From: Betaproteobacteria bacterium
GTDB taxonomy: Bacteria; Pseudomonadota; Gammaproteobacteria; Burkholderiales; Rhodocyclaceae
NCBI GenBank assembly: GCA_009782565.1
Contig: WRIU01000002.1
Location: 62,001 to 126,000 of the forward strand
Length of the DNA: 64,000 nt
Direction: 5' to 3'
A program made the translations under genes and the position numbers. The notes under the pieces are model-generated. The model searched no databases. It was not told the origin of the DNA and saw only the letters and a list, made by a program, of their open reading frames with translations. Each line of letters opens with the position of its first letter. Positions within the stretch are counted from its first letter, which is position 1. Positions 44,538 to 46,667 of this stretch are shown here, one piece after another.

Positions 44538-45023
44538 GTGGGAGCCAGGGATTACATTGGAAGCCTGTTCCTCAAGGAACTGTTCGAGGGGTTGGTGCTG
44601 ACCGGGCGGCATTTCTTCCGGCGCAAACTCACACAGATGTTCCCGGAGGAAAGAACGCCGTTGAGCCCGCGTTTCCGTGGGCTGCACGCGCTACGGCGCT
44701 ACCCGGATGGTGAGGAGCGTTGCATCGCCTGCAAGCTGTGCGAGGCAGCCTGTCCGGCCATGGCAATCACCATCGAAATAGGCGAGCGCGAGGACGGTTC
44801 GAGGCGCACGACCCGCTACGACATAGATTTCAACAAGTGCATCTATTGCGGTTTCTGCGAGGAAGCCTGCCCGGTAGATGCCATTGTGCAGACGCATATT
44901 TTTGACTATCACGGTGAGCAGCATAGCGACCTCTATTACACCAAGCAGATGTTGCTGGCCACTGGGGATCGCTTCAGGGAACAGATCGACGAAGCCAAGG
45001 CGGCGGACGCGAAATATCGGTGA
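44538..45023 (+). CDS. nuoI: NADH-quinone oxidoreductase subunit I
   Basis: A 161-residue subunit with two ferredoxin-type 4Fe-4S motifs, [16 protein letters not shown] and [16 protein letters not shown], carrying electrons to NuoB. It starts with GTG ([19 protein letters not shown]). Normally nuoJ would follow directly; here two unrelated genes (45045-45978) are interposed without disturbing the frame or end of nuoI. Confidence 0.96.
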
Positions 45024-45044: not shown

Positions 45045-45530
45045 ATGCCGAACATCAATACTACATCGAGTGGTCATCCTAGTCCGGTAAATACACGCCG
45101 CAAGTATTTACCGTACTCCAGCGCTGAATCTGAATATCTTAGGGCTTTACAGATGGCGATAGATATTATCAATTCCCGAATAAAAGGACATGTTCCATGT
45201 AACAATGCGTTTAAGGCTCTTCCGAAAGGAAGATCCTTTTTAGATGTTTGGAATGATATTTCGGTATGGATTAATTATGATCCGGATTTTATACCGGGCT
45301 ACTTTGGTGCTCGTGTTGGGAATAATATAACTATTTCAAAATATGCGTTCTTACAAGGACATTGGGCTGTGGTTGCTACCCTTGTTCACGAGCTTGCTCA
45401 TGTCAATGGTGCAGGGGGGTGGGATACTCAAGCCGAAGACACCCTAAAAGACTGTCTTCTTAAAAACCTGCACGACCCCAGTGTCATAGGAAGGGTTTTT
45501 AACCCAATGAATAATCAACGTATCGGTTGA
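45045..45530 (+). CDS. HExxH metallopeptidase-like protein inserted in the nuo operon
   Basis: 161 residues, AT-rich compared with all nuo genes. The zinc-peptidase motif is ATLVHELAHVNGAGG (H115-E116-x-x-H119), embedded in a helix preceded by a strand-like ISKYAFLQGHWAVV. A possible third ligand is E131 in TQAEDTLKDC, or a Gly-turn position as in metzincins (HExxHxxG is kept, the final His/Asp is not). The N-terminal 25 residues are polar (SSGHPSPVNTRR). No signal peptide is visible. AAGGAG precedes the ATG, 21 bp after nuoI. Protease activity is inferred from the motif only. The next gene encodes a TIMP-like protein. Confidence 0.72.
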   Translation: MPNINTTSSGHPSPVNTRRKYLPYSSAESEYLRALQMAIDIINSRIKGHVPCNNAFKALPKGRSFLDVWNDISVWINYDPDFIPGYFGARVGNNITISKYAFLQGHWAVVATLVHELAHVNGAGGWDTQAEDTLKDCLLKNLHDPSVIGRVFNPMNNQRIG

Positions 45531-45531
45531 T

Positions 45532-45978
45532 ATGGCAGAGAGCATGAAAAGATTCTTCTTTTTCCTGTTGATGTTGCTGCTGGCTTCTTCGCAGGCGATG
45601 GCCTGTCGTTGCCAAAACCCGGAACCGGAGAGTGCCTACACCCGTGCGGATGCCGTGGTTCTGGTCAAAATCAGGGAGGTGACGCAGGTTCAGGAAAACG
45701 TGGAACGCATGGAAACAGAGGTGCTTCAGTCATGGAAATTAAAAGTGACTGAAGATTCAGATACTCTTGTAGTATTTTCGAGAGCTAATGAGTGCCCGTA
45801 TGTTGGACAGAAAGGCGAGACGCATCTTCTTTACCTTTACCTCGAAAAGTTTAGCGATCTACCAGAAGGTTTTCCAGAAGGTTTTTGGACAGGTAATTGC
45901 GTGGGAAACTGGCCTGAATCATATCCACAGGCGATCAGGCATATCCAGTGGCTGAACCGCTACGGCAAGAGAACGTGA
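45532..45978 (+). CDS. secreted TIMP-like (NTR-fold) protein
   Basis: 148 residues with the signal peptide MKRFFFFLLMLLLASSQAMA; the start may be ATG 45532 or 45544. The mature protein would begin CRCQNPEPESAYTRADAVVLVKI. This parallels the TIMP N-terminus, C-x-C, a Pro-rich step, then Ala and Asp-x-Val with Lys. Cys at 25, 27, 88 and 123 give spacings of 63 and 96, close to the TIMP disulfide pairs 1-70 and 3-99. In TIMPs the free N-terminal Cys chelates the target's zinc. AMAC could alternatively be read as a weak lipobox. It begins one base after the metallopeptidase-like gene and ends 11 bp before nuoJ. Confidence 0.7.
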   Translation: MAESMKRFFFFLLMLLLASSQAMACRCQNPEPESAYTRADAVVLVKIREVTQVQENVERMETEVLQSWKLKVTEDSDTLVVFSRANECPYVGQKGETHLLYLYLEKFSDLPEGFPEGFWTGNCVGNWPESYPQAIRHIQWLNRYGKRT

Positions 45979-45989
45979 GCAGGGGCATC

Positions 45990-46667
45990 ATGGAATTTTC
46001 AACCTTCGTTTTCTACTTTTTTGCGGCAGTCCTCGTCGTGGCGGGGCTGCGGGTCATTACCGCGCGCAATCCGGTACACGCGGCGCTGTTTCTGGTGCTG
46101 GCGTTTTTCAGCGCCGGGGGCATCTGGCTGCTGCTGTCCGCCGAGTTCCTCGCCATCACGCTGGTCATGGTCTATGTCGGCGCGGTGATGGTGCTGTTCC
46201 TTTTCGTGGTGATGATGCTCGATATCGACTTTGCCCGCCTGCGCGAAGGGTTCTGGAAATACCTGCCGTTGGGGGCAGTGATCGGTGCGCTGCTGGCTAT
46301 CGAAATGGGTTTGGTGCTGATGAAAGGTTTCGGCGGCAAGGAGGTGGCGGCCGCTGCGGCGACCATTACCAACGTGACTGAACCCATCGAATGCAGCAAC
46401 AACATCTGCGAGTTGGGCCGGGTGCTCTATACCGAGTATGCCTATCCGTTTGAGCTCGCGGCGCTGGTGCTGCTGGTGGCGATGGTCGCGGCGGTGTCCC
46501 TGACCTTGCGCCGTCGCTCCGGCAAGTACGCCGAGAAGTACATCTCGCCGGAAGCGCAGATTGCCGCCCGTTCCGAGGATCGGATGATACTGGTGAAGAT
46601 GGCTTCCGAGAAAGAAGAGCCCGAAGAGCCTGCCGCCGGGGCGCAACCGGGCAAGGCCGGACAATGA
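45990..46667 (+). CDS. nuoJ: NADH-quinone oxidoreductase subunit J
   Basis: A 225-residue ND6-type subunit with five transmembrane helices, starting [68 protein letters not shown] is the family signature. A charged C-terminal tail ([15 protein letters not shown]) is longer than usual. The ATG at 45990 has AGGGGC just upstream, and the longer frame overlaps the TIMP-like gene. Confidence 0.95.

Follow-up and report, generated by a model that had tools for sequence, protein, structure and literature searches.

A TIMP-like exported protein encoded beside a HELAH metallopeptidase-like protein in the nuo operon of a Rhodocyclaceae bacterium, a proposed type VI secretion effector-immunity pair

The window, a 64,000-nucleotide stretch of contig WRIU01000002.1 (assembly GCA_009782565.1) of a Rhodocyclaceae bacterium, comes from a genome of 2.27 Mb that is estimated to be 99% complete. 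Inserted in its nuo operon, which codes for respiratory complex I, two co-oriented genes lie between nuoI and nuoJ, one for a protein with the HExxH motif HELAH and one for an exported protein resembling the tissue inhibitors of metalloproteinases (TIMPs). These two genes probably form an antibacterial module of a type VI secretion system (T6SS), in which the HELAH protein is the effector and the TIMP-like protein its periplasmic immunity protein. What was computed is the NTR/TIMP fold with its register of cysteines, an export signal carried by just one of the partners, the adjacency of the genes, the T6SS of the genome, the T6SS linkage of relatives, purifying selection and the loss of toxin before antidote; catalysis by the HELAH protein, its route of delivery, its target, the binding of the two proteins and the contact of Cys1 with zinc are inferred. 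An earlier sequence-only reading had taken the two genes for a toxin-immunity pair, and the T6SS association, the adjacency and the toxin-first decay described below speak for that view.

The open reading frame, leader and cysteines which that reading had described for a secreted TIMP-like protein starting with CRC were confirmed. The leader is hydrophobic (12-residue Kyte-Doolittle maximum of 2.76) and ends with QAMA directly before CRC. The protein has only four cysteines, at positions 25, 27, 88 and 123, giving spacings of 63 and 96; in TIMP-1 the disulfides Cys1-70 and Cys3-99 have spacings of 69 and 96. A lenient AxA-type signal-peptidase-I pattern stands directly before the first cysteine in all 13 TIMP-like family members examined and a strict lipobox in none of the 13, and a lipoprotein reading was rejected on this count. 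Because of this pattern the mature protein is expected to start with a free N-terminal Cys1, as had been predicted from the single sequence. In TIMPs the free Cys1 amine is the zinc-binding group and residue 2 points into the S1' pocket. C1, R2 and C3 were invariant in the 7 rows of the TIMP-like alignment A5, and Arg2 was found in 9/9 TIMP-like members adjoining an HExxH gene or fragment versus 2/8 of those without one (p 0.0023, kinship uncorrected), the other residues at position 2 of unpaired members being D, V, A, Q, T and S. Locus L045, which lacks CxC, was left out of the Arg2 count and of profile A6.

The relationship to TIMPs was faint in single-sequence searches. The Pfam TIMP family (PF00965) matched the TIMP-like sequence with an E-value of 0.067 and 13.4 bits, under the gathering cutoff of 23.1, and matched 3/10 relatives when E-values up to 1 were admitted (best 0.015); NRG2_N matched 3/10 members with a higher score (best E 0.0013), DUF4131 gave a marginal score, and phmmer of the single sequence against the PDB found no TIMP. 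With a profile of 10 sequences TIMPs made up 10 of the 11 PDB matches (E 0.38-1.2), and with one of 15 sequences they were the best 15 of 19 matches (E 2.8e-4 to 0.018). The AlphaFold2 model (pLDDT 78.5, pTM 0.75) matched the N-TIMP fold (NTR/OB). Since the 15-sequence profile ranks TIMPs best and the structure model agrees, the TIMP resemblance of the bacterial protein is real and beyond chance, and the NTR/TIMP fold foreseen in the sequence-only reading is upheld.

Animal TIMPs carry a third N-domain disulfide, Cys13-Cys124, and a C-terminal six-cysteine domain. The bacterial protein shares with them the Cys1-x-Cys3 start, cysteines at the positions of 70 and 99, and the N-TIMP fold; Cys88 and Cys123 align with these disulfide partners, and the corresponding bonds are predicted from the alignment. 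It differs from animal TIMPs (PF00965) in scoring below the Pfam cutoff, in its bacterial immunity context, and in that the mature form of 124 residues is the NTR domain alone, its four cysteines offering no counterpart of the third disulfide and the C-terminal domain being absent. Four more distant exported CxC proteins (L042, L043, L044 and L046) show the same cysteine pattern and have no HExxH neighbour within about 1.5 kb; judging from their sequences, they may represent a wider bacterial NTR family.

The upstream partner had been described as an HExxH protein without a signal peptide, and both points held. HELAH occupies residues 115-119 of its 161 residues, and within the first 40 residues the 12-residue hydropathy maximum is 1.15, so that no signal-like leader is present. 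Across 11 relatives sharing 30-70% identity 17 columns are invariant, among them H115, E116, H119, G122, A123, A130, E131 and C137, and the protein thus appears to conserve a putative zinc-peptidase set of HExxH and a later glutamate (E131). The protein has HExxHxxG but carries Gly at residue 125, where the metzincin motif HExxHxxGxxH/D requires His or Asp. The HELAH protein had no match in Pfam or NCBIfam, and its profile retrieved no relevant chain among 8 PDB matches; the relatives L032 and L052 matched Zincin_1 weakly (E 0.19, short of the cutoff), and the best PHROG E-value was 0.18, with 0.015 for one relative. The first 15 residues of the HExxH proteins of L030-L034 and of the window contain a recurrent motif near I-x-x-G-D-H-x-S (INTTSSGHPSP in the window), which could be a loading signal for secretion machinery.

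The window genome encodes TssB, and TssH, TssG, TssF, TssM, a DotU/TssL protein, TssK and TssC were found over cutoff on contig C12. Outside the genus, TssB was present in 9/10 tested genomes with HExxH relatives versus 59/299 sampled Pseudomonadota (Fisher p 5.8e-6, kinship uncorrected; G567, with L052, stands outside this count). The most telling T6SS link is provided by L030 (Competibacteraceae) and L034 (Mesorhizobium), where tssH (TIGR03345, 1275 and 1228 bits, respectively) is followed directly by the HExxH gene and then by the TIMP-like gene.

In the mechanism that we propose, the HELAH protein would be kept folded and harmless in the cytoplasm of the producer until the T6SS injects it into the periplasm of surrounding cells, kin among them, where it would cleave a periplasmic protein or a peptidoglycan peptide. 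The TIMP-like protein would be exported by Sec and, with the signal peptide removed and Cys1 exposed, its NTR domain would close off the zinc cleft of the arriving peptidase in TIMP fashion, binding the zinc through the amine and carbonyl of Cys1 and directing Arg2 to the S1' pocket. The sequence-only reading had found an unexported protease beside an exported inhibitor in need of explanation and had suggested a dedicated exporter; because the T6SS delivers into the periplasm, it would be that exporter and would account for a toxin that lacks an export signal beside an antidote that has one, as seen in VgrG2b-PA0261 and Tpe1-Tpi1 (PMC6899460). That the TIMP mechanism itself, with the N-terminal Cys on the catalytic zinc and residue 2 in S1', exists in bacteria as T6SS immunity through an NTR domain homologous to that of animal TIMPs is a tentative proposal which may well not hold. 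If true, Arg2 would mark a peptidase with a preference for a basic residue immediately following the scissile bond, perhaps the diamino acid in the stem peptides of peptidoglycan; a T6SS metallopeptidase effector family would gain an immunity protein whose inhibitory mechanism could be predicted from the decades of research on TIMPs, and TIMP-type inhibition would have a place in interbacterial conflict. The same effector-immunity pair could also be neutralised at a surface other than the zinc, Cys1 being disulfide-bonded and purely structural: T6SS immunity proteins with folding disulfides are known, and PA0261 needs DsbA (PMC6899460). That Cys1 is strictly kept as the residue following the signal site, and Arg2 in paired forms, argues against this alternative, which we consider unlikely, though it deserves attention.

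The two-gene module proposed here has left a series of decay stages at one chromosomal site. Of the 21 genomes of the genus, 16 gave a nuoJ match and 14 a readable nuoI-nuoJ junction, a count that leaves out G010 (no nuoI), G005 (nuoI partial) and the five genomes without a nuoJ match. Both genes are present in three genomes (G000, G019 and G001); the TIMP-like gene stands alone in G008 and G012, the latter copy having lost Cys88; a scrap of the TIMP-like 3' end is all that is left in G016 and G017 (L054 and L058; its score was reached by 0/500 shuffles in each case); and seven junctions are empty (18-39 bases). All six junctions whose nuoJ is at least 81% identical to the window nuoJ carry the insertion or its scrap. 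In these sister genomes the toxin was lost before the antidote, and pair, antidote alone, scrap and empty site are in the order expected of a toxin-antidote system, since the toxin can go while the antidote stays. The junction therefore offers a natural series, inside a complex I operon, for the study of toxin-before-antidote loss. Both genes are under purifying selection relative to the closest relative, G019 (dN/dS about 0.31 for the HELAH gene and 0.35 for the TIMP-like gene). A protease and its regulator, rather than a weapon, might also be encoded here, the HELAH protein acting in the producer or leaving by another route and the TIMP-like protein restraining it, in the manner of alkaline protease and AprI or of Listeria Mtz-Tim. 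Pairs with an exported inhibitor are known (the Listeria pair and the comparison with AprI in PMC8235301), and in the window genome the genes lie in a housekeeping operon; the missing signal peptide of the HELAH protein, the enrichment of T6SS among carriers, the tssH adjacency, the patchy presence (an intact copy in 3/21 genomes of the genus) and the toxin-first loss make this explanation improbable.

HExxH relatives were found in 5/100 close-relative genomes (fragments included), 3/399 genomes of the order and 2/398 genomes phylum-wide; a scan of genome contigs yielded 11 loci. Intact loci number 14 (the window, G019, G001, G096, L026, L029-L034, L036, L037 and L052), the fragments L016/L035 and G009 being kept apart. 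L052 was judged by reading its open reading frames without a profile, L026 and L052 with about 1.5 kb of flank each, and for several relatives the start codon was picked by inspection. A TIMP-like neighbour is present in seven of the 14 (the window, G019, G001, G096, L030, L031 and L034), always downstream and on the same strand, with the toxin-like gene first and, in the six pairs computed, a spacing of -4 to +61 bases. This order and strand recur in beta-, gamma- and alphaproteobacterial records, and over the 7 pairs the distances between the HExxH proteins correlate with those between the TIMP-like proteins (r 0.80, a value that 21 of 5040 permutations attained). Within the genus, 9 TIMP-like loci occur in 8/21 genomes, of which 3 have an intact HExxH gene and 2 just a fragment of one (N-terminal in G009, C-terminal on contig C80 of G001), none having been found at the other 4; an intact HExxH gene never occurs in a genus genome without a TIMP-like gene. 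The sequence-only reading had named genomes in which each gene commonly stands without the other as evidence against it, and this is partly the case: each gene is also found without its partner. A reading in which the TIMP-like protein works on its own in the envelope, as one of a widespread bacterial CxC/NTR type, and is only incidentally adjacent to a HELAH gene whose real immunity lies elsewhere, would fit the TIMP-like genes without an HExxH neighbour (L042-L046 and those of G002, G008, G012 and G018) and the 7/14 HExxH loci without a TIMP-like gene, and is made very improbable by the constant order and strand in seven loci of three proteobacterial classes and by the correlated distances. 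The TIMP-like gene beside the C-terminal fragment on contig C80 of G001 (L018) is a second, diverged copy far from the nuo genes. In L033 an exported-looking protein without a Pfam match (L033:5404-6135) follows the HExxH gene where the TIMP-like gene would be expected; it was not counted as TIMP-like and is a possible alternative immunity protein.

Several observations weigh against a T6SS effector-immunity module or against a strict pair. A TIMP-like neighbour is absent from half of the intact HExxH loci (7/14), and in the genus the majority of TIMP-like genes have no intact HExxH partner; immunity genes standing alone in this way might serve a different function. In the window genome the pair is not flanked by any T6SS gene, and T6SS adjacency was seen in 2/14 intact HExxH loci, the others not having been systematically scanned for T6SS genes. 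TssB is present in 18/21 genomes of the genus, so that the T6SS of the window genome is weak evidence by itself; G496, the most divergent HExxH genome, has no TssB, and the TssB match of G490 is partial. HExxH alone is a common motif, and the HELAH protein is read as a zinc peptidase from its sequence only. Finally, the taxa are not independent, and the Fisher, permutation and Arg2 figures are therefore optimistic.

Related arrangements exist. AprI and Inh are periplasmic inhibitors encoded beside serralysin metalloproteases without a Sec signal, and their N-terminus reaches the active site; serralysin is secreted by type I secretion. The window pair likewise joins a predicted periplasmic inhibitor to a metalloprotease-like protein without a Sec signal, but AprI, unlike the exported protein of this pair, is structurally not TIMP-like (PMC8235301). 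In Listeria, Mtz-Tim pairs a secreted metzincin with a neighbouring lipoprotein that was compared to TIMP; the authors of that study state that they had come across no previous report of TIMP-like structures in bacteria (PMC8235301). There too an HExxH peptidase gene is followed by an adjacent downstream gene for an exported TIMP-likened protein. On the other hand, Mtz is a Sec-secreted metzincin with HExxHxxGxxH/D, whereas the HELAH protein has no signal peptide and Gly125; Tim is a lipoprotein with a TIMP likeness of about 60% Phyre2 confidence, whereas the TIMP-like protein of the window has no lipobox; and Mtz-Tim is phage-linked, the pair described here T6SS-linked (PMC8235301). T6SS metallopeptidase-immunity pairs are also known, namely Tpe1-Tpi1 of Acinetobacter baylyi and the VgrG2b C-terminal domain with PA0261 of Pseudomonas aeruginosa (PMC6899460). 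With these the window pair would share an HExxH effector acting in the periplasm (as proposed for the HELAH protein), and in both a small neighbouring gene on the downstream side encodes the immunity protein (a proposed one in the window), which is directed to the envelope and has conserved cysteines (PMC6899460). No PDB chain of that family appeared among the 8 HELAH profile matches or among the TIMP-like profile matches. The window pair differs in that the effector is a stand-alone protein of 161 residues and in that its immunity protein is NTR/TIMP-like, no NTR fold being mentioned for PA0261 in the excerpt of PMC6899460.

In view of these pairs (PMC8235301, PMC6899460), the earlier statement that no bacterial pair of this kind had been described was too strong. 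No paper joining a T6SS with TIMP-like or NTR-domain immunity was found in the open-access literature (preprints being outside the scope), and the searched text of PMC3482391, a source on polymorphic-toxin immunity, mentions TIMP 0 times. Each kind of pair being already known separately, what appears new here is hence the joining of TIMP-like/NTR immunity to a T6SS metallopeptidase-like effector.

Table 1. Coordinates in the window of the inserted gene pair, its proposed functional residues and the flanking nuo genes.
Feature	Position	Strand	Basis or remark
nuoI	44538..45023	+	Upstream boundary of inserted pair; ORF and synteny
HELAH protein gene, 161 aa; zinc metallopeptidase-like, proposed T6SS effector lacking a signal peptide	45045..45530	+	ORF
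Codons of the HELAH motif (residues 115-119), a putative zinc site	45387..45401	+	Translation and conservation
Glu131 codon, invariant, candidate third zinc ligand	45435..45437	+	Alignment
TIMP-like exported protein gene, 148 aa, proposed periplasmic immunity protein/inhibitor	45532..45978	+	ORF, PDB profile search, model, fold match
TIMP-like protein signal peptide, predicted cleavage between AMA and C25	45532..45603	+	Hydropathy, AxA-type site, no lipobox
C-R-C codons, mature residues 1-3, Cys1 amine a proposed zinc ligand	45604..45612	+	Aligned on TIMP Cys1 and Cys3
Cys88 codon, aligned on TIMP Cys70	45793..45795	+	PDB profile alignment
Cys123 codon, aligned on TIMP Cys99	45898..45900	+	PDB profile alignment
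nuoJ	45990..46667	+	Downstream boundary of inserted pair; ORF and synteny

Phage or plasmid cargo was rejected, no relative having been found in viral contig scans or plasmid searches, and a defence system was rejected as no PADLOC match was obtained; the PHROG matches of the TIMP-like protein (best E 0.002) fall on its signal peptide (residues 5-29). A single base separates the stop of the HELAH gene from the ATG of the TIMP-like gene. The HELAH gene has a GC content of 42%, and the GC content at third codon positions (GC3) is 35% in this gene and 53% in the TIMP-like gene versus 73-80% in nuoH, nuoI and nuoJ, which suggests a foreign origin of the pair.
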